This document shows, piece by piece, positions 2,398-18,854 of a DNA stretch of 22,902 nucleotides; the stretch's first letter is position 1; the number at the start of each line of letters is the position of its first letter. The position numbers and the translations under genes were made by a program. Source of the stretch: a virus. The stretch covers positions 1 to 22,902 of IMG/VR virus record IMGVR_UViG_3300010885_017145; one strand, given 5' to 3'. A model generated the notes under the pieces. It was given only the letters and a program-made list of their open reading frames with translations, had not been told where the DNA came from and did not search any database.

Positions 2398-2979
2398 ATG
2401 GCAGTTAATGTTTCTAACATTATTGTTGGCGAGGCAACCCTGAAAATGGGAACTAACGCTAACGCAACATCCATCGCAGCAATGAATAACTTTGCTGATG
2501 TTGGTGCAACACAAAACGGTTTGGAAATCTCGTGGGAACCAGACATGGTTGATATTGAAATTGACCAATTTGGTGATGCCGCTAAGGTAATTCAATCAAA
2601 GGTAAAAGTAATGGTTAAGACAACCCTTGCAGAAGGAACCCTCAATAACCTCGCAACAGCTTGGAACTACGATAACACCACTGGTGGAGCAGACATCCTT
2701 GCTAACAATGATGGCGCAAATACAAAGACATTCTTGTTTGGTGCACAGGGAGTAATCCCATTTGAGAAGGCTCTTGTTGTTACAGGTACAGCACCTGGTT
2801 CAACAGCAGGTGCTACCCTTACCCGTACATTCTACACGAAGCGTGCAATTTCAATGGAATCATCCACAATTGCAATGAAGCGTGCAGAAGCAACAATGTT
2901 TACAGTTGGCTTTAGAATTTTGCCAACAGTAGCAGATTCTGGTTACGAGTACGGCAAGATCATTGATCAAACCGCATAA
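2398..2979 (+). CDS. Major tail tube protein
   Basis: A 193-residue beta-rich protein that polymerises as hexameric rings to make the tail tube around the tape measure. The core DVGATQNGLEISWEPDMVDIE followed by a Q/D-rich 'IDQFGDAAKVIQSKVKVMVKTTLAEGTLNNL' segment is the classic tail tube pattern, where a strand-rich domain compares a target value and then lists an alpha helix. An Ala/Gly/Thr loop (TGTAPGSTAGATLT) precedes a final beta hairpin. Length fits the family. The context is decisive: tail terminator upstream, frameshifting chaperones and tape measure downstream. It has the best ribosome binding site in the window, its own upstream promoter and a strong terminator after it. Its codons end in C more often than those of its neighbours (AAC, ATC, ACC, TTC), as expected for a very highly expressed gene. 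Confidence 0.87.
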   Translation: MAVNVSNIIVGEATLKMGTNANATSIAAMNNFADVGATQNGLEISWEPDMVDIEIDQFGDAAKVIQSKVKVMVKTTLAEGTLNNLATAWNYDNTTGGADILANNDGANTKTFLFGAQGVIPFEKALVVTGTAPGSTAGATLTRTFYTKRAISMESSTIAMKRAEATMFTVGFRILPTVADSGYEYGKIIDQTA

Positions 2980-3085: not shown

Positions 3086-3391
3086 TTGAGCGATAAAAAT
3101 AAAGACATTTTGGCTGGAACAGAGATTCTGTTCGCAGATGGAAAGACAAGAACAATTAAGCCTTTGACAATTCGTAATCTTAGAAAGTTTATGAAAGTTG
3201 TTAAGGATCTTAAGAGTGAAGATACACTCAATGACGAAGATATTGATGTCATGGTGGAAGCTGCTGGTATTGCACTCGCAGCTGTTGACCCAGAATTGGG
3301 TAATGATAGAGAAAAACTTGAAGATGTGCTTGACCTTCGTTCATTCGGTGAACTGATGGCAGCCGCAATGGGTTCAGACCCTTCCTTCTAG
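3086..3391 (+). CDS. Tail assembly chaperone, short form (lambda gpG-like)
   Basis: A 101-residue, strongly charged protein (many Asp, Glu, Lys) of the kind that coats the tape measure during tail assembly and is absent from the finished virion. It opens with IKPLTIRNLRKFMKVVKDL, a typical chaperone start ('plt.r.lr.f...'), then acidic helices. Start is TTG at 3086 with AAGGATGG at 3071-3078 upstream; the frame has a stop at 3050-3052, leaving no ATG choice. The stop (TAG, 3389-3391) comes just after the predicted slip site, so most ribosomes make this short form. Its place between tube and tape measure is the standard one. Confidence 0.8.
   Translation: MSDKNKDILAGTEILFADGKTRTIKPLTIRNLRKFMKVVKDLKSEDTLNDEDIDVMVEAAGIALAAVDPELGNDREKLEDVLDLRSFGELMAAAMGSDPSF
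3379..3385 (+). promoter_or_regulatory. Predicted -1 ribosomal frameshift site (C CCT TCC)
   Basis: The downstream frame (-1 relative to the chaperone) has a stop at 3349-3351 and is open from 3352, so any slip must fall within 3352-3389. Within that stretch the best candidate is CCT at 3380-3382 preceded by C: a proline tRNA can re-pair on CCC at 3379-3381. It is not a textbook X XXY YYZ heptamer, since the second codon (TCC to TTC) re-pairs badly. The downstream stem starts 8 nt after this heptamer, the usual spacing for a stimulator. Another weaker candidate is GGT at 3371-3373, re-pairing on GGG. Confidence 0.55.
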
Positions 3392-3717
3392 GCGAAGAGG
3401 GGGCTGGTTCATCTGACCAATCTTGGGAAGATCTCCCTCTTCTAAAATACGAATCGGAAGTATTTGTCAAGACTGGGTCTTGGGTGAACTTTGAATCACT
3501 TGAGACCCATCTGACATTAAACGAATTATTTTTACTCTATCGTGCCTGCATGAATGAAACGAATACTGCGATGAAAATTGCCGCAGCTGCGCAAGGTGCA
3601 GAAGTAGATTTTGAAGAAGATTGGTATGACCCCGAACCACCTCGTGTTGCGCAAGCGCACGATATTTTGGATATGAAGTTTGGTATGGGTTATGAGGTGG
3701 TAAAAAAGAGTGATTAA
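3382..3717 (+). CDS. Tail assembly chaperone, frameshift extension (lambda gpT-like part of gpGT)
   Basis: This frame is the C-terminal part of the long chaperone. Reading on from the slip it encodes GEEGAGSSDQSWEDLPLLKY and continues without a break through the 92 nt after the short form's stop and into a helical, acidic domain (LNELFLLYRACMNETNTAMK, then an Asp/Glu/Pro stretch with EEDWYDPEPPR). The fused product would be 210 residues: 99 from the first frame (through the Pro codon at 3380) and 111 from the second. A free-standing gene could start only at GTG 3484, which has no ribosome binding site, so fusion is preferred. 'YRACMNETNTAMKIAAA' followed by 'EE.W.' resembles chaperone C-terminal domains that bind the tape measure. 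Confidence 0.72.
   Translation, partial: FLLGEEGAGSSDQSWEDLPLLKYESEVFVKTGSWVNFESLETHLTLNELFLLYRACMNETNTAMKIAAAAQGAEVDFEEDWYDPEPPRVAQAHDILDMKFGMGYEVVKKSD
3394..3442 (+). promoter_or_regulatory. Stem-loop likely to stimulate frameshifting
   Basis: GAAGAGGG at 3394-3401 pairs perfectly with CCCTCTTC at 3435-3442. The stem extends inward by a G-U (3402/3434) and a G-C (3403/3433) to 10 bp. The large loop holds a smaller possible hairpin (TGGT 3405-3408 with ACCA 3416-3419). It begins 3 nt after the stop of the short chaperone, inside sequence that is coding in the -1 frame, which is where frameshift stimulators sit. Confidence 0.6.
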
Positions 3718-3739
3718 TTTTGCTTTAATTGACCTAATA

Positions 3740-3748
3740 TGCGATAAT
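3740..3748 (+). promoter_or_regulatory. Possible extended -10 promoter (TGCGATAAT) before the tape measure gene
   Basis: TGCGATAAT at 3740-3748, in the 47-nt gap between the chaperone and tape measure genes, matches TGnNATAAT with one change from consensus. It would start RNA near 3755, leaving a leader of about 10 nt before the ATG at 3765. No Shine-Dalgarno sequence is present. It is the weakest of the three elements of this kind in the window. Confidence 0.35.
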
Positions 3749-3764
3749 TGTACTTGGCTGAATT

Positions 3765-6700
3765 ATGTCCGACACTGGTGACTTTGCAACACGAATAGGT
3801 ATAGAAGCGTCTGTATCAGGCGTTGAATCTGTTGCGGGCTTAAGCACTGGCGTTGCCTCTCTTTCCCAGCAATTAATTAATCTTTCTAATGCCGCATTAA
3901 AGGGTTTCTCTGTTCAAGAGCAGTTAAATGCGGCTATGGAAAAGACTAGAAGAAGCGTTGGTGCGCTGGCTTCTGCCAGAGTTGAAGAAGCAAAAAATAC
4001 TCAATTATCAATTCGGGCAACTAAAGAGTATACGCAACAATTAAACGCATTATCCCAGGCTCAATCAAGAGTGTCGGCTGCAGGGAAGATGACACCGCAA
4101 CTTGCGGCTGGTTTTAAAACGCAATCTACTTATCTTAATCAAGCTGCAGGAAGCGCTGGTGCTCTTGCAGATGCATTAAATAATCCAAACATTAGTCAAT
4201 TTGGAACTAGAATGATGAAGCAAGGTCAGGCTGCACAGCGTTCAGCTTACTATATGGCTGCAGCTACTATGCCATTGCTTCTTGGGTTGAAGTCAGCATT
4301 CTTTAGCATGCTAAAGCTAGAGACAGAAACAGTGAGATTGAAAAAGCTTGTTGGTGATGCTTTCTCTGGTGCAACTGATGCTGTAGAGCAAACTAATAAG
4401 GCAGTGAATGATCTTAGTCTTCAATTAGATAAGATAACTGAAAAGTTTGGTACATCAAGAGTGCTCATTCAAAGTTTGGCTGGAGACTTTGCTGAATTAG
4501 GTTTGCCGATTGATGCAATAGCTAGGCTTACTGAATTCACAGCTGCTGCTGAAAAATTAGGTAATCTTGATATCTCAGCATCTCAGGGTTTTATTCAATC
4601 TCTCTATCAAAATATTGTAAGAGTGAAAAGAGAAGCCTCTCAAGATTTGGGGCTGGCTTTTGATCTTACAGATGCAAATACGCTAGTTGAAGTTCTTGAT
4701 GAAATTCAAGGTCAACTTTCAATTTTCAACCTTGTTGAAAATAAAACATCTCTTTCATTGAAAGACATTGCTGATGCTTTTCCTGAAGCGTCTGCTGCTG
4801 CAACAACATTTGGTTTAACAGCAACAGAGACTGCGGCAATGTTGGTACCAATGGTCGCCGCTAATATGCAAGTTGGTGCGTCAGCAAACTCTATTAAGGT
4901 TTCTTTGCAAAGAATGGTTGCTGTTACAAAACAAAATACAGTAATGATGGATCAATTGAGTGGGTCTTTAGATAACTTCCATGTTTCGGCAGGTATCGGT
5001 ATGAGTGCAATTCAAGATCTTGTTGATGGCTTTGATGCACTTAAGGAAGCTAAGGGCGCTCAAGGTGCTCTGGAGTTCTTCTCTAGGTTGTTCGGTGTTC
5101 GTCAAGGTCCAAGAATGCTGACATCTTTTCAACAGATGGCTGCTTTTCAAAAATCAATGAATAACAGCGCAGCTGATGAATACACAATTTCTCAGCAATT
5201 GCAACAAAGTGTTAATGCTAGATTGACTGCAACAGGTCATGATGCGATACAAATAAAAAAAATAATAGATCTAACAACTCTGCACAGAGCGGCTATTGAA
5301 AAAGTAAACGGTAAATATACAGAAAGAGCTGAAGCGATTCAAAAGGGTCAAAAAGATGCAGACAAAGCATTAAAGGCTTCGTTTAAAGCTTCTAATAATA
5401 CAGCAGATTATCTCGGACAAGTCTCAACTGAGACTGGCAGAGTGTATTTTATGGAAGCAATTGGTGGTGTTGAGGGTGCAAATGCTGCGATGCAGCAGGA
5501 ATTGAATTACAGCATAAGTACTGTCACTACAAAATTTAATATTTTGCGTGAAACTATGCTTGGCATTGGTCGTTCTATCGTTCCAATTATTGGAGTCTTT
5601 ATTGACTTGCTTCTTCCAGTAGTTAAAAAGGTTAAAGCTTTTTTTGATGGCTTAAGTTTGACCACAAAGAAATGGATTGGTCTTATGTTGATTTTGCCAA
5701 TCTTAATTCCTCAAATGAAATTGCTGGGTGCTGCAGTTAAAATTGTTGCGGGTGGGCTTGCTCAAATGTGGACAAGATCAATATCTGGCTCAACTAGCAC
5801 TCTCAGAGCGATTAGGGGTTTAAAGACAGAATTAGTTAGCCTTGAGGATCTATTAAATAATCCAGGAATTACAAAAGGATATAATAAATTAACACAACAA
5901 GGTGACACTGATAAGTTTTTGTTACAACAAGATCCAAATCATGCTGGTTATAAAAAAGGGTTTTTAAATAGTAGAAAAATGAGACCAGGATCTGAAGGCG
6001 TTTCTTTGCCTCTTCAGGAAGTTTTGCAAAGGAATGGTGTTGTTGGTGCAACAGATAAGAAGTCAATAAAAGCCCTTATGGGTAAAGCAACAAAGACTGG
6101 TTTACCTGATACAGAAGCTTTGATTCATACAATGCTTACTAATCTAGGTGCTATGCCTGAAGAGATTGCGGCTGCAACTACGAAAGCTGCAGATAAAGCA
6201 GCTACGAGTACTGCAGATAAACTTACGAAGGCAATGAAAGGAACTATCTTCCAGAATAACACTTTTGTTGGAAACAAGTTTGGTGGTGGAACTTCTGGTC
6301 CAGGCGGTACTGGTACTGGACCACGCACTCCAAAAACTCCAACAACAGGTGGAACACCAACTGTGCCAACACCAACTGTGCCAACACCAACTGTGCCTGG
6401 TTCTACAATTCCTACGCCAACGGCTCCTACAGCACCAGCAGCACCAAGTCGCTACTTGACAGATTCAAGGTTTGATCAAGCCAGCACTAGAAAGATTTCA
6501 ATTCCATCGGCTAAAGACATGGGTAAGGCTGCAACGATTAGTGCACCTATTGCGGCAGGTGTTAAGGAAGTAGCTGATGAAGCTAAAGCTGAATTGGAAG
6601 CACTCAGTAAAACAGTTACAGAAGAAGTTGATAAAGCTGGCGATATTGTTAGAGAATCTGTTAAACCAAGAGCAAACACAACTCGTGGTTCGCCAAGGAA

Positions 6701-9700
6701 AGTAAAACAAACACTTGATGCAGTTGTTGGTGAAGCTGCTAGTGCAACAGTGGCTCCTGTAGCGGGAGCTGTTGAGGTAGTAGCAGAGTCATCAAAAGCA
6801 GCGGCTGATGTTGTTGGGCAAGCGGCTAATGATATAAAGAACGCTACTAAGGGGGCTACTGGAGCTGCTATAAAATCAGCCAAAACTGTGGCTTCTGGTG
6901 GTGGTGCTGGAAAAATTGTTTCTCTTTCATTTAAAGAAATGGCAGATGTTTTCCAAAAAGCTGGTGTTGCAGTTCCAGATGAATGGGCATTCATTAAGCA
7001 TGTAGATAGGGAATTTCAAGTTGCTCAAGGTCAAAAGAAAGCATTCCTGAAAAAACTTCAAGAACAAATTGCACTAAGTCCACAAAACCCATTTGGCGAG
7101 TTTGACGCTAATCCAACAGTTCAGAAAAGAAAGTTCTTTCCATTTAGATCAGCATACGAAAAATCGCAAAAATCAAGACCGACTGAAATCTTGTCTCAAA
7201 GGCATGCAACTAAGTTGCCAATATTTGAAGGTTTGTTTGAAGAACAATTAAAAGATCAAGGCAAAGCAATGCCAGGTCCAGAAAAGTCTTTGAGACAAAA
7301 TCTACTTAAGAAAATAAACAAACAAAAAAATAAACTTGTTGGTGGTGGTATAAAAGCCCAAGCTGAAAGCGCTGCAGCTGCTCAAGCATATCAAGACATG
7401 CTTGCAGCTAAGAGAGCAGCTGAATATGCTGCCTTAGATTCAATCAAGGGTGCTGTTATTCCTGAAGGTGTTGAAAATGTTCTTGTATCTTCAAGTCAAG
7501 AATATATTACTGAACTTGAAGATCAAGTTAAAGCTGCTCAATCTCAATTGAGTAAATTGGAAAATGATAGAGCTAAATTAAAAAATATTAGTGGTCCAAA
7601 AGCTGCACAGACTAGAAAGGCTATAGATGCAGCAATACAGTCTCAAAAAATAGAAGTTGAAACATTAAGGGATGCACTTGAGTATAATTCTTATAACCGC
7701 TTTGAAAGAATAATCCCAGCAACAAAAGCAGACACTGCAATGTTGATGGCTCAAACACATCCTGATATTGCAAGTCAATCTGGTATACAAAATTTTGCAA
7801 GGAATAAACAAGATTATAGTAATTTATTTAAATCGCATGTTTCATCAATTCCTGTTCAGGGTGTAGACGGTAAAGCAAGAGCATTGTACGAACTTGCATT
7901 AACTAAAGAAATGCAAACAATTTCTTCTTCAATGGATGAAGCTACGGCGGAAGCTATTGCCGAACGAATGAGGAAAGGTGCAGCAAGTAAAGCTGACGCA
8001 ATTAGAGATATTGCTAGACAAAAACTTAATATGGATGTCTACAATCCAATGTCTCAAGCGTATAATCCATCTGCTCAAGCTGATTTATTTAAGACAAAAG
8101 GTCTTACTACAGAGGCAAAAAAAGCATTTAAGGCTGCTGGTGGAAGTGACGAAGACGGCACTGCTCTTGGAAAGCATTTTACAGAAATGAGAAAAGAACT
8201 GTCGGCTGCAGCAACCGCTGCAAGAGCAAAATCAGCTGCTGATTTTGCTGTAGTAAGAACAGAATATATTGCAGCTGAAGAGGCTATGCGTTTTCCAAAA
8301 CCACCTGTTCTTCCGCCAAAAGGTGCACAGTCAAGAGGTATGTTTGGTATGGCTCGTGGTCTTATGGGACCAGGTGGTGCTTATTTTGCTAATGCTGGTG
8401 GTGCTGCTAAGGAAGCGGCTCTGGAAGCAACAAAGACTTATAGAGAGTTAGTAACTCAAACAATAGATAATATTGTTAACAAGCTTCCTGCATCAATGGG
8501 TGCAGTCAGAAAAGATCTTCTAAAAGCGGTCTCTGAAGAAGTATTGAGAATACAACCGCTTGGCGCTGGAAAGAATGCGAAGAAAGTTGCTCAATTGCTT
8601 GATATGTCAGTCATCCCTGAAACTCAAGGGAGAGTTGTAACCGCACTTGCTGCTGTTGAAAATCAAGTCGTTCAAGATTTTAGTAGAGCAGTAAATGAAG
8701 GTTGGACATATGCCGCATCAGAAACTGCCAAGACTGGTAAGAAAGCAGCAAATAATAGTATTGGTTTTTGGAGAAAGTCTCTTGGCTTGTTTGCAAAGAA
8801 TGGAGACGATTTAGCAGTAACATTGCAGGGCGTTGTCTACGACATGATGACTTCTGCTTCTGTAGGTCTTAATGATTTAGAAGATCAGATTTCATCTGGC
8901 GGTTTTACAAAAGCTAAATTGAAAGCAAAGCTTGTTGGTGATGATGGTCTTCTTTCTAGAGTGACTCGTCAAAGAGCAGGCGAGAGTGGGCTTCTCAAGC
9001 CTATCATCCGACCAGTAGAAGAACCAGTTCCAACGGAAACTGTAGAGAAAGTTAAGTCTGTCAAAGCTAAGGAAGAAAACACATCTACTACTGAAATTGA
9101 CACAAAAACTACGGAGCAAAATGTTGTTTCAACAGAAACAAATACAGCGGCAACAGATGAAAATACTGCTCTTACAAAAACGGAAACAATAGCGACAGAG
9201 AAATCTGCCGTTGCTACGGAAACATCTGCTGTTTCCACAGAAGTTGACGCTGCTGCTACATCTGCTCACACTGCAACAGTAGAAGCCAGCACTGCTGCCA
9301 CTGGTAGAAGTATTGCTCTAACTAATTTGATGAGCAGGGCAGATGCATTGCTTGTCGGAGCAAAATCTCAACAAATTGCTTTGATTGATGCACAGATAGC
9401 AGGATTGACTGCAGAGCAGTTGTCAAGCAAAGCTGGTGCATCTCTAGTAGCACAAAGAAATGAGGTCAGTAAGAAACTGGCTACATTGGAAACTGTAAAA
9501 GCTAAATTAATAAAAGCTGAGAATGCAACCATAGAGAATGGTCTTGGGGCAAGAAATGCTAACTTAGTTAAAGCAAAAGCTGACTTTGAAAAAGCTGTTA
9601 AGAATGCTTCAAAAGAATTTGATAAGTTAAAAACTGTTGCTGCTTCTTCAGCGAAAGAATTAGCAAGTGCTGCTTCATCTGTTGCCCCTGCTGCTGGCAC

Positions 9701-12700
9701 AAAGACTGCCCCTGCTGCTGGTACAAAGACTGCCCCTGCTGCTGGCACAAAGACTGCTGCTACCACTGCTGGCTCTGGTGCTGTAAGAACAGCATCTAGG
9801 AAAACTATACACATTGCAGAAGATGTAGCTAAGAAGGGTGGAGCTTCTGGAATTATTAAAGCAATTGAAAAGCAAACATTACAGTTTGATAGTTCTCTTG
9901 CAAACTTCTTTAAGGGTCCGAATTTCTTCCAAGGTCCAAACATCTTTCAAGGGAAGATTATAACTGCAGATAAGTTAAATCTTAAGATTAAGGATTCTGG
10001 TAAAGCCGCTAAGGATTCAGCAAAAGCTTTAACATCTGAAGATCCACTTGTTAAGCAAGCAAGAGGCAGAAGAGCTTATACCGAATTATTAAAGAGACAG
10101 GAAAGTAAAAAAGGTGTTCCTTATTCTGATGCGCAGAAAGATAGATTAGCAAGGCTTGTTGGTTTTAAGAAGCCAACAATGCCAGCTGCAATGGCAGCAA
10201 CTAAGGCTTCTGATATGAAGGCGAGAGTTCTTGCAAATATTGCTGCGTCAAAAGCAGCAACTGAAGCCGCAAAAGATGCAGCAAAGATGGGTGGTCTTAG
10301 GTCTGGAATCTCCACTGGCAAATCTGGTGGTTTTGCTGCGTTGTCTAAGCCAATCCCTATTTTCCCAGGCTTAGCAAAGATGACTGCAGGTGTGGGTGGA
10401 TCTTTTGATAAAATTACCAAAAAAATTAGTGTACTCGGTGAAGTTGGCAAGAAAGTAACTTCATTAATTTCAAATGGTTTTAGGTCAAGCTCTTCATTGG
10501 CTGGCAAAGCGGTTGAAACTTTTGCACAAAAGTTTGTAAACAGATTCTTAAGTATGTCAAAAGCTGGAATTGCCGCTAGCTCCAATATGACAAAAGCTAT
10601 GACATATATTCTTTCTGCTACTAAAGTAACCATTAAAGAATTTGAAAGAGTAAATAAGTATTTGAAATTGATGGGTCGTATTGACTCATCAATTGCTAAA
10701 TCAATGAAAAACTCTGCTAGAGAAGTTTCATTTGTATTGCGAAATATAGGCACGGTTGTTAAAACTGATTTGATTTCTAATTTTGCAATTCTAAAATCAT
10801 CATTGGCAAATAGTAAAGTTTTGAAAATTTGGTCTTTCTTATTATTCACTGGAATGACAAGGGGTGCTGGCGCAGTAGGTTTATTGATTAAAGGCGTAAA
10901 GGCTTTAGGCACTAATGCACAAAGAGTTGAAGCAGTTAGATTGTCGCTTTCAAAATATTCAGCTTTAAGAGAGGCAAGAGGTCTTTCTCGCACAATACCA
11001 TTGTTCCAAAAATTAATTGTCGCTGGTAGCGCATACACAGGTATCGGAAGAGGAATCAAGACCGTATTCTCAGCGGCTACTAAAACAATATTTAATATGA
11101 TTGGCGTTGCTATGAAATTAAACGCTTCGTTGATGATGATAGCTCCAGTAGTTATTCTCATAATGGGTCTTATTATTGGATTGAAATCTGGACTTGCTGG
11201 AACAAAAGGCTCAACTGATAATCTTAAAGAAGCTTGGAGAGCAATAAAGGAAGCAATCCTAGCTTTGGCTAGACCATTGATGGACTTGATTGGTGTCTTT
11301 GGTGGTCTTGGTAAAGCATCCTCTGGGGCTGGAGCAGTTTCTAATGCCTTGAATACTATGACTAGAGCAGTTAAGGCTGGCGCTCAAGCGTTTGAAAGAT
11401 TCGCCAAAGGTCCTGGTGTCCAGTTCATGAAGAATGTTTTGGTGCCAATTGTTACTCGTTTAGTTAATAGATTTATTATGCTCGGCAGGGCTATTGCTGG
11501 ATTGTTTAAAAACGATAGTGCTGCTGCTGCAAAAAATTTCACAGGTTTGTTCTTGTCTCTTGCTTGGGAAGCCGTGAATGCAATACAAAAAATATTTAAA
11601 ATTCTGGCTGAGATTCTTCCAGCGATGGGACCAATCTTGGCTTCTATGATAGAAGCTGTTCTTAATGCAACAATAGATGCATTTATGTATATTATGAATT
11701 TTGGAAAAGAAGTTGCTTTGTTCTTTGGAGTGATGTTAACCACTATTGGCTTGGCTCTTTCCGTGTTCACTGGTGGAGCGTTCCTTCCTGTTGCTGGGTT
11801 TGGTGCCGCATTGATTGCAGCAGCTGGTGCTGCTTCTTTGCTAGATAGGCACATTGGCTCGGTAAAAAAGAAAGTTAAAGGATTCTCAAATACGCTAGGC
11901 AAGGGCATTGCTGATGGCTTAGGCGCAGCAGCTGGTTATATACAAAAAGATATGTTGGGATCTATCAAGGACAAGATTTCTGAAAAATATGGTGAAGCAA
12001 TGGGTAAAGATATAAATGAAGCTTTAACCAACACCATGAAAGACCCAGCCGATGTCAAGAAAGCCATAGCGGATGCTCTCGGTGGTGCTGTTAAAAACCC
12101 AGAGGCTGCAAATGCGGCTGGAGAATCTTTAGGTTCAGCCATAGCTAAAGGTATAAAAGACAAGTTAATTTCATTGAAAGAAGATTTTACGGGCGCTTTC
12201 TTTGGTAAAGCTGATGACCAAGTAAGCAAGATTGTTGATGATTATAAGTCAGCGATTGATAAGCAAAAAGAAGCTGCTCTAAAGGCTTTTGACACTCAAG
12301 TTGAGGCAATTGAAGCACTTGGAAAAGCTGAAGAAGAACTCACTGCGAAAATGGATTATGAAGAAAAACGCAGAGAGATGATTAAAGAAAGAGCAATGAA
12401 TAAAGAAAATTATTTAAGAGAAAGGAAGATTGCTAAGTACGAAGGTCGTACAGAAGATGTCCGTTCTCTTGATCTTTCATTTAGAAAAACAGATAAAGCC
12501 GCTGGAAAAGAAATTACCAATCTAGACACGGATAGGGCGAAGACACTCCAGGAGCAGCAGAGGGCGATTGCTATTTCAGTCATTAACCGTGAAAAAGATA
12601 TTATGGCAGAAACATTTGATGAAATGCAAAAACAATTTGATATCAATCTTGCCAAAATATTGAATAAGGGCTTTTCAACAAAAGAAGAGTTTGACTCTTT

Positions 12701-15700
12701 GCTGAAAGAAATTGGTGGGGCTGCACAGGGCTTTTCTGGGGAGATTAATAAAGTATTTGAAGATACAATGTTTGCTCTTCCTTCAACTATTGCAAAATAC
12801 ACAGACCCATCAGTAGGAATGTTCAGTATAACAATGGACAAGCTTGTTACACAGGCGCAGATGGCATTTGGTGCAAATTTAAAAACTGGCGATGCCAAGT
12901 CAATACTGGGCGCTGCATATGCAATGGCTAATGGTCTCCCTGATGCATTCAAGCAAGCGTTTAGTGATGGAATAGTTACTGAATCGGTAACTCCTTTTGT
13001 TACAAAGATTACAACAATAATGGGTGGAGTTAATGTTGACACAATTTGGATAGAGGCTGGAAGGTCTGCAATTGAAGCAATGATTGGAGAAATGAAGCGC
13101 AAATTGCGTGCTTTGCGTGGGGATCTCTATGATGAGTTTAAAACATTGTTTGCTGGGATGGGTGCTGACTACAATCAACTTTTCCCAGAGCTTGAAAGGC
13201 TTGCAAAGCAAATTGCAAAAATTGAAGCAATCAGATCGCAAAGCGGTGGCGGTGGCGGTGGAGATAAGGTTAAAAAGCCTGTTCCCCCTGGTGGCGGTGG
13301 AATGGGCGATGACAAGATTGACCCGAAAGCATATTCCGATGGCACTCCAGACAAGATTGGGTATAAGACAGTGCCAGATAAGAAGGGTAGCGGTTTCTTT
13401 GGTGGAATAATGGATGGCATGAAATCATTGGTTGACTACCTTGGACCTGTTAAGACAGCAATTCTCGGAGTTGTCGGTGTGTTCGCTGGATTCTTTGCTC
13501 TACAAGGATTGTTTAGCGTAATAGCTAGCGCATTTGAAACAATGATGATTATCGCTATGTATGCAATCCAACCGATTGGAACAGCGGTAGCTGGTATTAG
13601 CGCTGGAGTTGCTGCTGTAGTTGCTGCAATTGCTGTAGTTATTGGCGTAATCATATATATGTATATTAGGTTTAAATGGTTTAGAGATATGGTTAATGAC
13701 ACATTTAAGAGTGTTATTGATTTCTTTGTTACTGGCTTTAAGATGCTTAAAGATCCTGTCATGGGTTTCTTGGGCGCAGTTTGGGACGGAGTAAAACAAA
13801 TATTTGATTCGCTCTTTGGTCCAATTATTGATTTTGGTAAAAAAATAATAGCTGGTATTTTAATTGCTATTGGTGGAGTTGTTGCTGCAATAGTCGTAGT
13901 TCTTCGTGGAATTTCAATTGCACTTGATTTTATCAAAGAGCCATTGTTCAAGATAATCGGTTGGGTCATAAATCTTGCTACTGGAATAGTAAATGTTCTT
14001 GCAGATATTATCTCTGGGGCGATTGACTTTGTTTACAAGATTATCGGAGCGCTGTTCTCAGTTGGAATTGGCGGTCCAATCAAGCTTATTATTGGAGCAT
14101 TTAAAATTGCATTTGACATTATTGTTGGAATAGTTAAGATAGCAATTGATTTGATTATTAAGGCATTTGATTTCCTTAAGGGTGGATTGTCTGGTCCATT
14201 TGAAGTTGGATTTGGAATTATTAAAGACATCTTTAATAAGATAAAAGATATTGTTTCTGGAGTAATTGATTTTGTAAAAGGCATATTTAGCGGGCTTACA
14301 AGTCCTCTATCAGGTCCATTTGAAACTATTTTGGGGATTATTGAAACAGTGTTTGAAAAGATAAAGGGTGTTATTTCTGGAGTAATTGATTTTGTAAAAG
14401 GCATATTTGACGGTTTTGATATGGCACCTTATGCTAAGCCAATAATAGCTCCATTTAAAATTGCATTTGATTTTATTAAAGATATCTTTGGAAAAATATC
14501 TGGTGTTGTTGCGGATGTCTTTGGAAAAGTATTTGATGTGTACACGGCTATCTGGGGGAAAATATTTGATGTTGTTAGAGGAGTGTTTGAAGGTATAGTC
14601 TCATTCCTCCAGCCAATTGCGGAAACTATATTAAAGATTCTAATTGCTCCATTTAAAATATTGTTTGATGTATTTAAAGCAATTGCGAATAATCCAATAG
14701 TTGGTTTCATTGCAAGAGTGGTTGCTGGTCTTGCAATATTTGCTGCAATTATAGCGACTTGGGGTGTAAAATTTGCATTTGAGTTGCTAGCTGACACGAT
14801 TCAGTGGGTGTGGGAAAAAGTTAAAGCCCTTGCTGACGCTATATGGGATATACTTGGTGTAGCGTTTTCTTGGCTTGGAGATAAAATTTCTGCAGTATGG
14901 AATGCAATTTCCGATACATGGAATAAAATAACTGCTAAATTCCGAGAGTTCAAAGAGTGGTTCAATTCAAATTTTGGATCTCTTTGGAATCTTGTGTTTC
15001 TCCCCTTTGTTCTAATCTATGAAGGCATAAGATGGGTCTTCAATTATATAAAGGAACACGCTGGTCCGATAATCAAAGAATTCTGGCAAAATTTTAAAGA
15101 CCGTATTGATGCTGTCTGGGACAAGATAACTGCTTTTGCTGACTGGGTTTCTAATATCTTTAGTGCTGTTTGGGATGCCATTAGACCAATGATTAATAAG
15201 TTCTGGGAAGGTCTCAAGGATGCTATCGGTAGTGTTTGGGATGCAATAACAGGATTTGCTGACTGGGTCTCTAATGTGTTTGGCGGTATATGGAGTCGTA
15301 TAAAAGATATAGTATCTAGCGTGTGGGGTGGAATAAAAGATGCCGTAGATATTGTTTGGAATAAGCTACTGGATTTTGCTCTTTGGCTTAATAATATATT
15401 TGAAGCGGCATGGGATAGTATTGGACCTATAATTTCTGCCCTCTGGGATGGTCTAAAGAAATCCGTTGATGTTGCATGGAATGCATTAAAAGATTTCGGT
15501 TCTTGGCTGTCAGATGTATTCCATAAGATATGGGATGGCATCGGTCCAGTAATACAGAAAGCATGGGATGGCATAGTCGCAGCAGTTGATTATGTATGGG
15601 AGAAATTAAAAGCATTTGCCTCTTGGCTGAACGACAAATTAGGAGGTGCATGGAATGCAGTTTCTGATATCATTTCTAAAGTTTGGGATAAGATTACCAG

Positions 15701-17387
15701 TGGTGTCGCATTAGTTAAAGACAAACTTATTGAGCTTAGGAATTGGCTGTTAGATAAATTAGGAATGTCGTGGGAAGAGTTCAAGTGGAAAGCCGTTATA
15801 GTTTTTAAAATAATCAAGCGGGAACTTAAAAAAGTATATGACAAACTACGAGATTTTGCTTCTTGGCTAAAGGATAAGTTGAGTGGTGCATGGGATGCTG
15901 TATCTGAAGCCGCAGGGAAGCTTTGGGATTTAATACAGGCAGGTTGGGATAAAGTTGGTCCAGTTCTTGGGTGGATATGGGATAAGGTAACTGCTCTGGC
16001 TGGTGCAATCAAGGATAAGCTCCAGCCAGCGTTTGAAAAAATTAGCGAGGTCATTCAAGATCTTTGGGAGATTACTGAACCAATATTTGGTTACTTCTGG
16101 GACAAGTTAATCTGGCTTGGTGGAATAATTAATGATTATGTCATCGGACCTTTCAGAATTCTATGGGATCTTATTGTTGCTGGATGGAATCTTGTTAAAC
16201 CAATATTTGAAGCAATGTGGGATTGGCTTGGACCGAGAATTGGTCCAGTTATTGATTATATAAAAGAAGGTTTCCATATAGTTTGGGACACCATAGGAAA
16301 GGGCTGGACTTGGGTTAAAGATATATTTAGTGGTATGTACGATTGGCTCAAAGATAAGATTGGATCAGCTGTTAGTAAATTAGCAGATCTATGGGATAAA
16401 GTTTGGGATTCTATAAAGAAGGGCTGGGATTGGGTTAAGGGCATATTTAGCGATATGTACAATTGGCTTAAGGATAAAATTGCCTGGGTCCTTGATAACA
16501 TAAGAGAACTATGGGACAAATTTGTTAACAAAATCAAAGACACATGGAATGGTATTGTTGAAATTTTCCAAAAAATAAGTGACAAGATTAGAAATGCAAT
16601 TGGCGGCGCAATTGCAAATATAGTTGAAAAGTGGAATGACTTCACGGCAAAGATGGACGAAATTTGGGAACAAGTTAAGACTATTGCAACGAACATTGGT
16701 AATTGGATTAAAGATAAAATCGGTGGAGCTATTAACTTCATTAGAGACTTAATAGGTCTTATACCAGCAACATTTAAAGGTGTAGTCAATATTATTATTA
16801 ATGCTTGGAATACCATGTGGAAGAAAATGGACTCGGTTGCTTTCCCGAAGACTATTTGGGGCATACCACTGCCACCATTTATGGCTGGAAAGAGCATTAG
16901 TGATTATATTAATCTTCCTTTGATTACGGAATTGAAATACAACGGTGGGAAGGTTGGTACCTACATGAAGGGCGGCATGGCATATGGTGATGGCGGTATG
17001 ACTTACGGTCCTGCTCAACAGGGTATCCCAGCTGTCTTGCATGGTGGTGAGTATGTCATTAATCATAAGGCAGTACAGAGGATTGGCACTGATACACTAG
17101 ACAGGCTTAATAATTACAGACTCTCTAAGCCAAACTTGCCAACAATGCCATCTGTCCCTAATATTAAGATGCCAGCAGTTGGGGCGAATAATCCACAGTA
17201 TGCACAGTCAGGAACTAACTCCACGCAGAATGTAAACATTTATGTGGATAACTTTATTGGTGAGCCAGAGTGGTTTAACACAATGATGAAGACATATAAC
17301 ACAACAGTGCTGCCAAGAAATCAGAAATCAGCTGGTCTTGAGAGTCGTGTTATAAATTCATACAATGGATTAAATAGAGGTTTGTAA
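3765..17387 (+). CDS. Giant tail tape measure protein (4540 residues)
   Basis: This protein spans the inside of the growing tail, sets its length, and is later ejected ahead of the DNA. Order of parts: residues 28-105 coiled coil; 160-183 hydrophobic; about 185-620 the conserved N-terminal tape measure region (TP901/PhageMin_Tail type, ending in 'RETMLGIGRSIVPIIGVFI'); 637-669 hydrophobic; 846-896 Pro/Thr linker with TPTVP repeats; 897-1771 Ala/Lys helices (clear coiled coil 1244-1309); 1773-1856 Thr-core heptads; 1974-1997 APAAGTKT repeats; hydrophobic clusters 2452-2480 and 2650-2693; charged coiled coil 2817-2965; Gly linker 3160-3185; hydrophobic 3231-3303, 3361-3387 and 3647-3672; Trp repeats 3678-4325; and a C-terminal GIPAVLHGGEYVINHKAV motif (4426-4433 = HGGEYVIN) seen in many tape measures. 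No lysozyme, transglycosylase or peptidase motif was found. The start at 3765 lacks a ribosome binding site. Confidence 0.95.
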   Translation: MSDTGDFATRIGIEASVSGVESVAGLSTGVASLSQQLINLSNAALKGFSVQEQLNAAMEKTRRSVGALASARVEEAKNTQLSIRATKEYTQQLNALSQAQSRVSAAGKMTPQLAAGFKTQSTYLNQAAGSAGALADALNNPNISQFGTRMMKQGQAAQRSAYYMAAATMPLLLGLKSAFFSMLKLETETVRLKKLVGDAFSGATDAVEQTNKAVNDLSLQLDKITEKFGTSRVLIQSLAGDFAELGLPIDAIARLTEFTAAAEKLGNLDISASQGFIQSLYQNIVRVKREASQDLGLAFDLTDANTLVEVLDEIQGQLSIFNLVENKTSLSLKDIADAFPEASAAATTFGLTATETAAMLVPMVAANMQVGASANSIKVSLQRMVAVTKQNTVMMDQLSGSLDNFHVSAGIGMSAIQDLVDGFDALKEAKGAQGALEFFSRLFGVRQGPRMLTSFQQMAAFQKSMNNSAADEYTISQQLQQSVNARLTATGHDAIQIKKIIDLTTLHRAAIEKVNGKYTERAEAIQKGQKDADKALKASFKASNNTADYLGQVSTETGRVYFMEAIGGVEGANAAMQQELNYSISTVTTKFNILRETMLGIGRSIVPIIGVFIDLLLPVVKKVKAFFDGLSLTTKKWIGLMLILPILIPQMKLLGAAVKIVAGGLAQMWTRSISGSTSTLRAIRGLKTELVSLEDLLNNPGITKGYNKLTQQGDTDKFLLQQDPNHAGYKKGFLNSRKMRPGSEGVSLPLQEVLQRNGVVGATDKKSIKALMGKATKTGLPDTEALIHTMLTNLGAMPEEIAAATTKAADKAATSTADKLTKAMKGTIFQNNTFVGNKFGGGTSGPGGTGTGPRTPKTPTTGGTPTVPTPTVPTPTVPGSTIPTPTAPTAPAAPSRYLTDSRFDQASTRKISIPSAKDMGKAATISAPIAAGVKEVADEAKAELEALSKTVTEEVDKAGDIVRESVKPRANTTRGSPRKVKQTLDAVVGEAASATVAPVAGAVEVVAESSKAAADVVGQAANDIKNATKGATGAAIKSAKTVASGGGAGKIVSLSFKEMADVFQKAGVAVPDEWAFIKHVDREFQVAQGQKKAFLKKLQEQIALSPQNPFGEFDANPTVQKRKFFPFRSAYEKSQKSRPTEILSQRHATKLPIFEGLFEEQLKDQGKAMPGPEKSLRQNLLKKINKQKNKLVGGGIKAQAESAAAAQAYQDMLAAKRAAEYAALDSIKGAVIPEGVENVLVSSSQEYITELEDQVKAAQSQLSKLENDRAKLKNISGPKAAQTRKAIDAAIQSQKIEVETLRDALEYNSYNRFERIIPATKADTAMLMAQTHPDIASQSGIQNFARNKQDYSNLFKSHVSSIPVQGVDGKARALYELALTKEMQTISSSMDEATAEAIAERMRKGAASKADAIRDIARQKLNMDVYNPMSQAYNPSAQADLFKTKGLTTEAKKAFKAAGGSDEDGTALGKHFTEMRKELSAAATAARAKSAADFAVVRTEYIAAEEAMRFPKPPVLPPKGAQSRGMFGMARGLMGPGGAYFANAGGAAKEAALEATKTYRELVTQTIDNIVNKLPASMGAVRKDLLKAVSEEVLRIQPLGAGKNAKKVAQLLDMSVIPETQGRVVTALAAVENQVVQDFSRAVNEGWTYAASETAKTGKKAANNSIGFWRKSLGLFAKNGDDLAVTLQGVVYDMMTSASVGLNDLEDQISSGGFTKAKLKAKLVGDDGLLSRVTRQRAGESGLLKPIIRPVEEPVPTETVEKVKSVKAKEENTSTTEIDTKTTEQNVVSTETNTAATDENTALTKTETIATEKSAVATETSAVSTEVDAAATSAHTATVEASTAATGRSIALTNLMSRADALLVGAKSQQIALIDAQIAGLTAEQLSSKAGASLVAQRNEVSKKLATLETVKAKLIKAENATIENGLGARNANLVKAKADFEKAVKNASKEFDKLKTVAASSAKELASAASSVAPAAGTKTAPAAGTKTAPAAGTKTAATTAGSGAVRTASRKTIHIAEDVAKKGGASGIIKAIEKQTLQFDSSLANFFKGPNFFQGPNIFQGKIITADKLNLKIKDSGKAAKDSAKALTSEDPLVKQARGRRAYTELLKRQESKKGVPYSDAQKDRLARLVGFKKPTMPAAMAATKASDMKARVLANIAASKAATEAAKDAAKMGGLRSGISTGKSGGFAALSKPIPIFPGLAKMTAGVGGSFDKITKKISVLGEVGKKVTSLISNGFRSSSSLAGKAVETFAQKFVNRFLSMSKAGIAASSNMTKAMTYILSATKVTIKEFERVNKYLKLMGRIDSSIAKSMKNSAREVSFVLRNIGTVVKTDLISNFAILKSSLANSKVLKIWSFLLFTGMTRGAGAVGLLIKGVKALGTNAQRVEAVRLSLSKYSALREARGLSRTIPLFQKLIVAGSAYTGIGRGIKTVFSAATKTIFNMIGVAMKLNASLMMIAPVVILIMGLIIGLKSGLAGTKGSTDNLKEAWRAIKEAILALARPLMDLIGVFGGLGKASSGAGAVSNALNTMTRAVKAGAQAFERFAKGPGVQFMKNVLVPIVTRLVNRFIMLGRAIAGLFKNDSAAAAKNFTGLFLSLAWEAVNAIQKIFKILAEILPAMGPILASMIEAVLNATIDAFMYIMNFGKEVALFFGVMLTTIGLALSVFTGGAFLPVAGFGAALIAAAGAASLLDRHIGSVKKKVKGFSNTLGKGIADGLGAAAGYIQKDMLGSIKDKISEKYGEAMGKDINEALTNTMKDPADVKKAIADALGGAVKNPEAANAAGESLGSAIAKGIKDKLISLKEDFTGAFFGKADDQVSKIVDDYKSAIDKQKEAALKAFDTQVEAIEALGKAEEELTAKMDYEEKRREMIKERAMNKENYLRERKIAKYEGRTEDVRSLDLSFRKTDKAAGKEITNLDTDRAKTLQEQQRAIAISVINREKDIMAETFDEMQKQFDINLAKILNKGFSTKEEFDSLLKEIGGAAQGFSGEINKVFEDTMFALPSTIAKYTDPSVGMFSITMDKLVTQAQMAFGANLKTGDAKSILGAAYAMANGLPDAFKQAFSDGIVTESVTPFVTKITTIMGGVNVDTIWIEAGRSAIEAMIGEMKRKLRALRGDLYDEFKTLFAGMGADYNQLFPELERLAKQIAKIEAIRSQSGGGGGGDKVKKPVPPGGGGMGDDKIDPKAYSDGTPDKIGYKTVPDKKGSGFFGGIMDGMKSLVDYLGPVKTAILGVVGVFAGFFALQGLFSVIASAFETMMIIAMYAIQPIGTAVAGISAGVAAVVAAIAVVIGVIIYMYIRFKWFRDMVNDTFKSVIDFFVTGFKMLKDPVMGFLGAVWDGVKQIFDSLFGPIIDFGKKIIAGILIAIGGVVAAIVVVLRGISIALDFIKEPLFKIIGWVINLATGIVNVLADIISGAIDFVYKIIGALFSVGIGGPIKLIIGAFKIAFDIIVGIVKIAIDLIIKAFDFLKGGLSGPFEVGFGIIKDIFNKIKDIVSGVIDFVKGIFSGLTSPLSGPFETILGIIETVFEKIKGVISGVIDFVKGIFDGFDMAPYAKPIIAPFKIAFDFIKDIFGKISGVVADVFGKVFDVYTAIWGKIFDVVRGVFEGIVSFLQPIAETILKILIAPFKILFDVFKAIANNPIVGFIARVVAGLAIFAAIIATWGVKFAFELLADTIQWVWEKVKALADAIWDILGVAFSWLGDKISAVWNAISDTWNKITAKFREFKEWFNSNFGSLWNLVFLPFVLIYEGIRWVFNYIKEHAGPIIKEFWQNFKDRIDAVWDKITAFADWVSNIFSAVWDAIRPMINKFWEGLKDAIGSVWDAITGFADWVSNVFGGIWSRIKDIVSSVWGGIKDAVDIVWNKLLDFALWLNNIFEAAWDSIGPIISALWDGLKKSVDVAWNALKDFGSWLSDVFHKIWDGIGPVIQKAWDGIVAAVDYVWEKLKAFASWLNDKLGGAWNAVSDIISKVWDKITSGVALVKDKLIELRNWLLDKLGMSWEEFKWKAVIVFKIIKRELKKVYDKLRDFASWLKDKLSGAWDAVSEAAGKLWDLIQAGWDKVGPVLGWIWDKVTALAGAIKDKLQPAFEKISEVIQDLWEITEPIFGYFWDKLIWLGGIINDYVIGPFRILWDLIVAGWNLVKPIFEAMWDWLGPRIGPVIDYIKEGFHIVWDTIGKGWTWVKDIFSGMYDWLKDKIGSAVSKLADLWDKVWDSIKKGWDWVKGIFSDMYNWLKDKIAWVLDNIRELWDKFVNKIKDTWNGIVEIFQKISDKIRNAIGGAIANIVEKWNDFTAKMDEIWEQVKTIATNIGNWIKDKIGGAINFIRDLIGLIPATFKGVVNIIINAWNTMWKKMDSVAFPKTIWGIPLPPFMAGKSISDYINLPLITELKYNGGKVGTYMKGGMAYGDGGMTYGPAQQGIPAVLHGGEYVINHKAVQRIGTDTLDRLNNYRLSKPNLPTMPSVPNIKMPAVGANNPQYAQSGTNSTQNVNIYVDNFIGEPEWFNTMMKTYNTTVLPRNQKSAGLESRVINSYNGLNRGL
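6354..6398 (+). repeat. Three tandem 15-nt units (TPTVP) in the Pro/Thr linker
   Basis: Units at 6354-6368, 6369-6383 and 6384-6398 each encode TPTVP. They differ only at the last base (CCA, CCA, CCT). They lie in a low-complexity Pro/Thr linker (residues 846-896) between the conserved N-terminal region and the helical body of the tape measure. Confidence 0.9.
9081..9332 (+). repeat. Twelve 7-residue repeats with Thr in the core (tape measure 1773-1856)
   Basis: The 84 residues from T1773 to M1856 fall into twelve units of seven with no gap. Position 4 is Thr in 11 of 12 units (Val in one) and is followed by Glu in 7 of 12. Position 1 is Thr, Ala, Val or Ile throughout. Examples: TSTTEID, TKTTEQN, TIATEKS, AVSTEVD. 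Positions 1 and 4 match the a and d core sites of a coiled coil, here filled mainly by Thr/Ala instead of Leu. The DNA has diverged, so the pattern is kept at the protein level. Confidence 0.85.
9684..9755 (+). repeat. Three tandem 24-nt units (APAAGTKT)
   Basis: Units at 9684-9707, 9708-9731 and 9732-9755 are identical except for one silent base (GGC/GGT) and encode APAAGTKT three times (residues 1974-1997). Near-identity of the DNA points to recent duplication, probably by slippage. They lie between two coiled-coil stretches and likely form a flexible spacer. Confidence 0.92.
14185..14550 (+). repeat. 40-residue imperfect tandem repeats in the tape measure
   Basis: Two units (SGPFEVGFGIIKDIF... 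and SGPFETILGIIETVF...) are 120 nt apart, followed by a more diverged third (APFKIAFDFIKDIF...). They share 'GPFE..-GII...F.KIK..-SGVIDFVKGIF'. A 35-nt stretch is identical between 14254-14288 and 14374-14408, so the last duplication is fairly recent. They lead into the Trp-rich region. Confidence 0.8.
14796..16740 (+). repeat. Tryptophan-rich repeat region of the tape measure (residues 3678-4325)
   Basis: About 60 Trp occur in about 650 residues, against very few elsewhere in this protein. They recur in units such as VWDKITAFADW-VSNIFSAVWDAI, with Trp or Phe about every 7-12 residues and Asp/Asn after many of them. Trp/Phe at near-11-residue spacing is an established hallmark of tape measure repeats. 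Units are diverged at the DNA level, so copy number is best counted from the protein. Confidence 0.85.
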
Positions 17388-17782
17388 TGTCTATATCTAA
17401 TGTAATGACCATAAACGGAACAGAGGTTACTGAACACAACAGGAAGCTCAGTATCTCTGAGCAAATTTCTGCTAATGATGTTGATCTTGCGTCTGGTCAT
17501 AGAAGAAGGTATTTTACTACAAACAAGAAACAATTTACTCTTTCTTGGTCGTACTTGCCAGATTTGGTTGTCAAAACCGTTGATAACCGAAGTGCTAGGA
17601 ATTTTTTATTTGGAATTGTAAATACAAGTGCTTTTGCAACAGTTGGGGTTGAGTTGGAGCCAGGAGCTGGTTTTTCAGAATATGAATGCTATGTTGATTC
17701 ATATAGTGAGTCTTTAATCAGAAGAGACTTATCAACTGGGTGTACTTATTACGATGTCTCTTTGACATTGACGGAAAGATAG
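17387..17782 (+). CDS. Distal tail / minor tail protein (Dit-position), paralogue A
   Basis: A 131-residue protein following the tape measure with a 1-nt overlap (TAATG); AGAGG at 17376-17380 is a good ribosome binding site. The slot between the tape measure and the hub gene usually holds the distal tail protein, the ring joining tube and hub, and this size fits a minimal one; I saw no diagnostic Dit motif. Landmarks are HNRKL (about residue 17), RRRYF, KKQFTLSWSYLP, TVDNRSARNF and YSESLIRRD followed by YYDVSLTLTER. All recur in the C-terminal 141 residues of the next gene, so the two are paralogues. Confidence 0.6.
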   Translation: MSISNVMTINGTEVTEHNRKLSISEQISANDVDLASGHRRRYFTTNKKQFTLSWSYLPDLVVKTVDNRSARNFLFGIVNTSAFATVGVELEPGAGFSEYECYVDSYSESLIRRDLSTGCTYYDVSLTLTER

Positions 17783-17783
17783 T

Positions 17784-18854
17784 ATGGCTGGTAGTTGGTT
17801 CAGTTTTTCAGAACCGTTTAATAGCGGTATTGACTTTAATCAAAGAGATTCTGCTGATGTTGAAGTTGCATTAAGTTCGCTGTCCAGCTTGACGGTTACT
17901 TCTTACAAGATAGCATTTGCATCAATATCTCTTTCATCTAATTCAGATGTAGCAGCATCGTCAATAAAAATTGCTTATGCTCAAGTAAATATCAATGATA
18001 TCTTATCAACAACAGTAACAGTTGCAGATAAGATAAAATTAATAGATATATCAATGTCTGTACAATCAAATGTTGTTACTAATGCTACAAAAATAGCGTT
18101 TGCTGCAATATCTGCATCATCTTCAGCATCTATATCTGCAACATCTACAAAGATAGCGCAATCTCAATCAGTACTGTCATCATCCGCAAGTCTTAACGCT
18201 TCGGCTACAAAAATAGCGCTTGCTGCAATATCTGCATCTGCTTCAGCATCATTGACAAGCGCCGCAACTAGGGTTGCACTAGCAATTTCTGCATTGTCAT
18301 CTTCAGTACATCTCGCTGTTGCTGGAAAGATATCTCTTGCAACAATACAAATTGTCCTCCAAGAAGTTGGGGCTGTAGTTGTTCAGACACCAGTTGTCTT
18401 TGCACAAAATGTTGCTAGCGGTATTGACGCAAGTATTTACAGGACACTTGTTTTGCTTGATGGCAAGCCATTGACAATGCACAACAGGAAGCTTGATATG
18501 GGTATAGATCAAATATTCACAGAAACTGTCAATTGGAATAATAGAAAAACAAGATATTATAAATCAAGTTCAAGAGCTGGCAGGCGTACATTTAGCATGT
18601 CTTGGTCATGGTTGCCAAACTCAATCAATTATACGGTTGATGGCAATAGTGGTCGTGATTTTATAAAAAAAGTAGCTGAAGACCCAAGGCACCATGTCCT
18701 CAAGATAATTAATATGGATGAGACTGGGGCAACGCCGTACTCAGAAACGAGTTATAATGTATTAGTGAAAGATTATAGCGAAACATTAATTAGAAGAGAT
18801 ATCCCAAATGATGTCTACTTCTGGGATTGCTCTATGAGCCTGGAAGAGGTATAA
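17784..18854 (+). CDS. Minor tail protein: 20-residue repeat array plus paralogue B domain
   Basis: A 356-residue protein starting one base after the previous stop, with GGAAAG at 17773-17778. Residues about 30-200 are a Ser/Ala/Ile array of eight units of 19-21 residues, each starting near KIA (residues 42, 62, 83, 103, 123, 143, 163, 182). The alternating hydrophobic/Ser pattern suggests stacked beta strands. Similar Ser/Ala-Gly repeats occur in minor tail proteins of actinobacterial phages. Residues 216-356 match the whole of the preceding protein: MHNRKL, RTFSMSWSWLP, TVDGNSGRDF, YSETLIRRD, and a final SMSLEEV. It is probably a second, extended ring or side-fibre component at the tail tip. 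The repeat function is unknown. Confidence 0.6.
   Translation: MAGSWFSFSEPFNSGIDFNQRDSADVEVALSSLSSLTVTSYKIAFASISLSSNSDVAASSIKIAYAQVNINDILSTTVTVADKIKLIDISMSVQSNVVTNATKIAFAAISASSSASISATSTKIAQSQSVLSSSASLNASATKIALAAISASASASLTSAATRVALAISALSSSVHLAVAGKISLATIQIVLQEVGAVVVQTPVVFAQNVASGIDASIYRTLVLLDGKPLTMHNRKLDMGIDQIFTETVNWNNRKTRYYKSSSRAGRRTFSMSWSWLPNSINYTVDGNSGRDFIKKVAEDPRHHVLKIINMDETGATPYSETSYNVLVKDYSETLIRRDIPNDVYFWDCSMSLEEV
17907..18386 (+). repeat. Eight tandem repeats of about 60 nt (20 residues) in the minor tail gene
   Basis: Unit starts (the K/R codon) are at 17907, 17967, 18030, 18090, 18150, 18210, 18270 and 18327. Consensus is roughly [KR]IA-A-IS-SSS-S-A-T. Units 4 and 6 are nearly identical in DNA over 18084-18118 and 18204-18238, with one silent base different, exactly 120 nt apart. 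Units 2, 3 and 8 have drifted furthest. This looks like duplication of two-unit blocks. Confidence 0.88.

Follow-up and report, generated by a model that had tools for sequence, protein, structure and literature searches.

An open reading frame of 13.6 kb in a viral DNA record raises the question of whether such a frame encodes one giant tape measure protein (TMP) and, if so, what tail this protein would set. The DNA analysed here, called the window, is the whole of IMG/VR record IMGVR_UViG_3300010885_017145 (22,902 nt), which is probably a fragment of a larger phage genome. Very probably, the protein sets tail length in an uncultured siphovirus that is a distant relative of Stanwilliamsviridae; the predicted tail is about 680 nm long, the length of the protein changes mainly through repeats, and its middle region has been recombined.

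The long frame and its tail genes

The frame (positions 3765–17387, plus strand) runs through 4540 codons from ATG to stop without interruption, as the first-pass annotation had stated. TMP families of PHROGs match the N-terminus and the C-terminal third of the 4540-aa product, and the Pfam family PhageMin_Tail (PF10145) matches residues 231–433 with 36.7 bits against a cutoff of 33.2. The earlier assignment as a tape measure is borne out by these matches and by the site of the gene between the chaperones and the distal tail genes; judged from its sequence, the 4540-aa protein is a siphovirus tape measure protein. The tail genes of the window are as follows.

2398..2979, plus strand: major tail protein, 193 aa (PHROG 2175, Ig domain; 476; 885)
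3086..3391, plus strand: tail assembly chaperone, upstream (gpG-like) part; conserved, between the major tail protein and TMP genes
3377..3401, plus strand: candidate −1 frameshift site GACCCTTCCTTCTAGGCGAAGAGGG, 25 bases around the chaperone stop
3392..3717, plus strand: tail assembly chaperone, −1 frame extension (GT-like); conserved open frame overlapping the upstream stop
3765..17387, plus strand: TMP gene, 4540 aa (open frame, PHROG TMP families, PF10145, orthologues)
17387..17782, plus strand: 131-aa protein directly after the TMP, probably distal tail (phrog_1194; conserved position)
17784..18854, plus strand: 356-aa tail protein with a C-terminus paralogous to the 131-aa protein
18855..22850, plus strand: 1331-aa minor tail/adhesin protein (PA14 and laminin-G-like domains)

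The −1 frame is open across the chaperone stop codon at 3389–3391 and is kept in relatives, predicting a frameshift. Among contigs alignable in this region, the 25 bases around the stop show at most one difference, which lies at the edge, and these bases are probably the −1 frameshift site; no canonical slippery heptamer was found within this conserved stretch. The paralogy of the two genes downstream of the TMP is seen as 35% identity over about 130 aa, and the N-terminus of the 356-aa protein carries a Ser/Ala-rich repeat stretch. The order major tail protein, chaperone with −1 frame, TMP, 131-aa protein, protein of about 355 aa and large adhesin is kept in relatives, and its first half is found in Stanwilliamsviridae too.

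The first-pass annotation had raised the possibility of a chimaera of misassembled reads. In that case, or if the frame were an artefactual fusion, the true TMP would be shorter. Such an origin would agree with the mosaic nature of the TMP gene, which diverges more than its neighbours, and with the fact that the window's pairing of flank and segment (see below) is known from a single contig. However, IMG/VR contigs contain six distinct full-length versions of 4214, 4269, 4354, 4409, 4514 and 4540 aa, the window included, some of which were found in two or three contigs. The orthologues of 4214–4514 aa come from independent assemblies and different samples, all begin with MSDTGD, and share the C-terminal module of the window TMP. 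In addition, the mosaic of the relative L003 is carried by L004, which derives from another sample. Because the independent full-length orthologues have the same start, end and size class, a misassembled frame was rejected and is considered extremely improbable.

Repeats and recombination within the protein

A piecewise scan of the protein showed that TMP PHROGs match only residues 1–640 and 3151–4540; residues 641–3150 gave no PHROG match and, in the piecewise Pfam scan, sub-cutoff matches only. The following parts can be distinguished.

3765..5684, plus strand: N-terminal TMP module, residues 1–640, with PhageMin_Tail
6762..9314, plus strand: exchangeable helical segment (predicted), residues ~1000–1850, two allele types ~28% identical
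11685..13214, plus strand: clade-specific core, residues 2641–3150; conserved, hydrophobic stretches on either side, no PHROG match
13440..14177, plus strand: cluster of transmembrane-like hydrophobic segments, residues 3226–3471 (hydropathy; TMP PHROG matches)
14265..16754, plus strand: aromatic repeat zone, residues 3501–4330; 40-residue unit of 11+11+18 with Trp/Phe on one predicted helix face
16935..17384, plus strand: C-terminal TMP module, residues 4391–4540, with the LHGGEYVINHKAVQRIG motif (PHROG scan, relatives)

The N-terminal module was found in all clade TMPs examined. The core, with 45–76% identity to the window, is likewise shared by all complete clade TMPs read, even the shortest. 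Besides the cluster listed above, hydropathy revealed hydrophobic clusters at residues 597–661, 2445–2515, 2649–2694 and 3622–3676, and Pro/Thr-rich and Thr/Glu-rich linkers lie at residues ~860–960 and 1850–1915. PDB sequence searches with the core, the swapped segment, the N-terminus and the C-terminal part returned weak, uninformative matches, including the TMPs CD1366 and FtbJ. AlphaFold models of the swapped segment and the core are near all-helical, and since both models have low confidence (pLDDT 43), they do no more than suggest that the middle of the TMP, about 2.5k residues, is helical.

The window TMP lacks cysteine, which was considered as a special trait and rejected because other long TMPs share it, with 0–1 cysteine in eight TMPs of named phages. 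A few clade TMPs have 2–7 cysteines.

The first-pass annotation had described many built-in repeats. These are real, but they cover only about a quarter of the protein, since nearly all of them, two short outliers apart, lie in residues 3307–4358. The 40-residue self-similarity reached its best score of 152 at lag 40, compared with at most 56 in block shuffles, and windowed self-BLAST marked 1198 self-similar residues in total, 901 of which fall within residues 3440–4340. The double unit [FW]-x10-[FW]-x10-[FW]-x17 has five exact matches vs. none in 100 shuffles. The combined phase of Trp and Phe has a period of 3.635 residues with R = 0.42 vs. a shuffle maximum of 0.31 (residues 3681–4320) and exceeded the null in the main ranges, placing Trp and Phe, on the basis of this periodicity, on one face of a predicted helix in the repeat zone. 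For Trp only, the phase did not exceed the null in three of four ranges, and the best period in the fourth is not the helical repeat. Aromatic repeats of the 11-11-18 type are known in about 5% of TMPs (PMC3271669, PMC5099701).

Growth by duplication, also proposed earlier, accounts for part of the size of the protein. Among close relatives, the repeat zone varies from 463 to 830 aa and holds most of the differences in TMP length, and indels between relatives are often 40, 11, 22, 29 or 80 residues, although these pairwise counts are not independent. However, the excess over the 2102-aa TMPs of Stanwilliamsviridae, the nearest named phages (see below), lies mostly in the largely non-repetitive, family-specific middle.

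Within this middle, residues 1000–1850 occur as two allele types that are swapped between lineages. The pair L003/L006 shows 96% identity for the N-terminus and core and 29% for residues 1000–1850, whereas identity between the window and L003 is 55% for the N-terminus and rises to 79% for residues 1000–1850. The synonymous divergence (dS) between the window and L003 follows the same pattern: it is 2.1 for the N-terminus and 1.5 for the core, and drops to 0.42 for residues 1000–1850. The flanking tail genes show dS of 0.25–0.96 among the window, L003, L004, L006, L009 and L018, reaching up to 1.7 in the 131-aa gene of the more divergent L017. Among close relatives, the TMP is far more variable than the major tail protein, which is 91–94% identical. 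The low dS of the segment compared with the high dS of the TMP parts around it, together with the uniformity of the tail genes, indicates that the TMP is, as read from these alignments, a recombination mosaic within a more uniform tail operon. The dN/dS of residues 1000–1850 (0.17–0.31) corresponds to purifying selection.

Predicted tail length, assembly and possible cargo

A line through five phages for which TMP size and measured tail are available (TP901-1, Tsamsa, Gsput1, GordTnk2 and lambda) has a slope of 0.149 nm per residue; for 4540 aa, it predicts a tail of 682 nm. The lambda TMP has 853 residues. These phages range from 0.126 to 0.176 nm per residue, so that the ratios alone would give 572–798 nm, and the TP901-1 deletions correspond to 0.144 nm per residue, in keeping with the 0.15 nm per residue on which the first-pass annotation had relied. 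The reported tails are 118 nm for TP901-1 (PMC5099701), 150 nm for lambda (PMC9022992), 229 nm for Gsput1 with a TMP of 1431 aa (PMC4563357), 440 nm for Tsamsa with 3123 aa (PMC3903500) and 519 nm for GordTnk2 with 3272 aa (PMC4563357). Hotorobo, with a TMP gene of 9984 bp and a tail of about 540 nm (PMC4982279), is consistent with the calibration, and P23-45 (5002 aa, tail > 800 nm) has a longer tail than the line predicts. The tail of about 680 nm proposed earlier is thus reproduced as a calculated value; from the gene alone, we infer a length of about 680 nm (570–800 nm), which is reasonable if the whole protein serves as the ruler.

The tail would be shorter if the TMP were cut during assembly and only a fragment set its length. 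For the Tsamsa TMP, two bands (280 and 100 kDa) have been reported (PMC3903500), and the two linkers of the window TMP could be sites of cutting. However, neither a protease site nor a TMP-linked protease was found, and Gordonia TMPs of 3272–3327 aa yield near full-length tails. Cleavage is accordingly considered improbable.

The proposed mechanism combines what was observed here, namely the gene with its family and neighbourhood, its repeats and mosaic structure, and the range of TMP lengths in relatives, with assembly, ejection and tail-length behaviour taken from studied phages. The chaperone pair, joined by the predicted frameshift, would cover the TMP, and the major tail protein would assemble around it in rings, starting at the tip and ending at the head, such that the mostly helical chain of 4540 residues would set the predicted length. 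The chain would be released from the tail during infection, and the hydrophobic clusters in it would take part in forming the DNA channel. Length would shift mainly through gain or loss of helical repeats of 11, 18 and 40 residues near the C-terminus, and the middle would be reshuffled among related phages by recombination.

Wall cutting would fall to proteins other than the TMP. Pfam profiles revealed no muralytic domain (lysozyme, NlpC/P60, M23, SLT or similar) in the window TMP, and a motif scan found neither HExxH nor DxDxD, in agreement with the earlier observation that such a domain was not seen. An RNA polymerase or metallopeptidase within the window TMP was rejected on the same empty scans. 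A match to phrog_971, labelled 'endolysin', was rejected as evidence of a lysin because it is confined to TMP-like profile positions. Upstream of their major tail protein gene, relatives encode a protein of 279–280 aa that combines VanY and PG_binding_1 domains (L006:706-1548; L035:9991-10830). This protein is a candidate wall-cutting enzyme of the virion, or may simply be an endolysin; the window lacks this gene because the contig starts after that position.

A second reading concerns the swapped segment, residues 1000–1850, perhaps together with the core. These residues may form a folded cargo or channel domain that enters the host with the DNA, with alleles exchanged according to differences in host or defence, and the rest of the protein would act as the ruler; leaving out the 850-residue segment gives about 550 nm. 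The exchange of the segment as a block, the contrast between its dS and that of the adjoining TMP parts in the same pair, and its purifying selection are in line with this reading, as are the RNA polymerase in P23-45 and the sortase domain and HExxH motifs in relatives' TMPs. However, the segment has no curated match in Pfam, PHROGs or PDB, it is modelled, at low confidence, as all-helical with no compact fold, and the window TMP has neither of the two enzyme motifs. Cargo in the middle of the TMP is considered unlikely, though less so than cleavage, and a ruler that uses its whole length is preferred. If the cargo reading is correct, the clade TMP would be both a ruler and an injected multi-domain carrier, as in the sortase and HExxH relatives of up to 6438 aa.

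These relatives come from a scan of IMG/VR with the major tail protein, which gave 194 relatives. The long contigs, when extended, contain closed TMPs of 1876–6438 aa next to major tail proteins 72–94% identical to that of the window, and four TMPs exceed 5002 aa (6438, 5369, 5362 and 5068). The longest (L124 and L146; contig IMGVR_UViG_3300020193_000009, 76740–57424, minus strand) contains, in L124, an HELMH motif, and the C-terminal HGGE motif occurs there three times. The TMP of 5068 aa (L133:1351-16557) carries a sortase domain (PF04203, E = 3.5e-21) and an HEFGH motif, and a Cys/His stretch that resembles a zinc finger separates copies of its C-terminal module. The clade, with similar major tail proteins and a threefold range of TMP length, constitutes a natural length series in which the per-residue ruler rule can be tested. 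Moreover, given the recombination in the middle and the enzyme-like inserts of relatives, very long TMPs may have added functions.

Elsewhere, a relative's contig encodes a tryptophan halogenase-like protein (L035:15345-16829), a class II ribonucleotide reductase (L036:11499-13427), a glycosyltransferase (L036:13499-14512) and a TauD-like oxygenase (L037:1432-2223).

Comparison with known phages

The giant case named in the literature covered here is the Thermus phage TMP of 5002 aa. Thermus phages P23-45 and P74-26 (5002 aa, tail > 800 nm) resemble the window in having a giant single TMP gene and an extreme tail, which for the window is predicted, and neither the P23-45 TMP nor that of the window has cysteine. 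However, the P23-45 TMP contains a metallopeptidase domain and, at its N-terminus, an RNA polymerase with DFDGD; the signatures of both are missing from the window TMP, and the aromatic repeat zone is found in the window TMP and not in P23-45. Lactococcal TMPs (p2, TP901-1) share with the window the 11-11-18 arithmetic of aromatic repeats and hydrophobic regions, but the TP901-1 TMP, at 937 aa, lacks the long family-specific middle.

The nearest named phages, by protein identity and gene order, are Stanwilliamsviridae; the kinship is distant, and membership of the family is not claimed. The major tail proteins of the Streptomyces phages BillNye and Jay2Jay are 40–42% identical to that of the window, and the LukeCage portal is 44% identical to the portal of a close relative of the window. 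The gene order is also alike (major tail protein, two small genes, TMP, a protein of about 133 aa, minor tail), whereas the TMPs are 2102–2103 aa long and align to the window TMP in their N-terminal part alone. Scans of species genomes for prophages or hosts gave no relative; an actinobacterial host is a guess based on the kinship to Streptomyces phages.

Phages of Gordonia, Tsukamurella and Rhodococcus (GTE7, GordTnk2, TIN4, Hotorobo) have TMPs of 2909–3327 aa, 27–36% shorter than that of the window, and their tail-tip genes differ from those of the window. Nevertheless, the TMPs of GTE7, GordTnk2, TIN4 and DocB7 resemble the window TMP in the N-terminus and the repeat zone, and the tails of GordTnk2 and Hotorobo have been measured at 519–540 nm.
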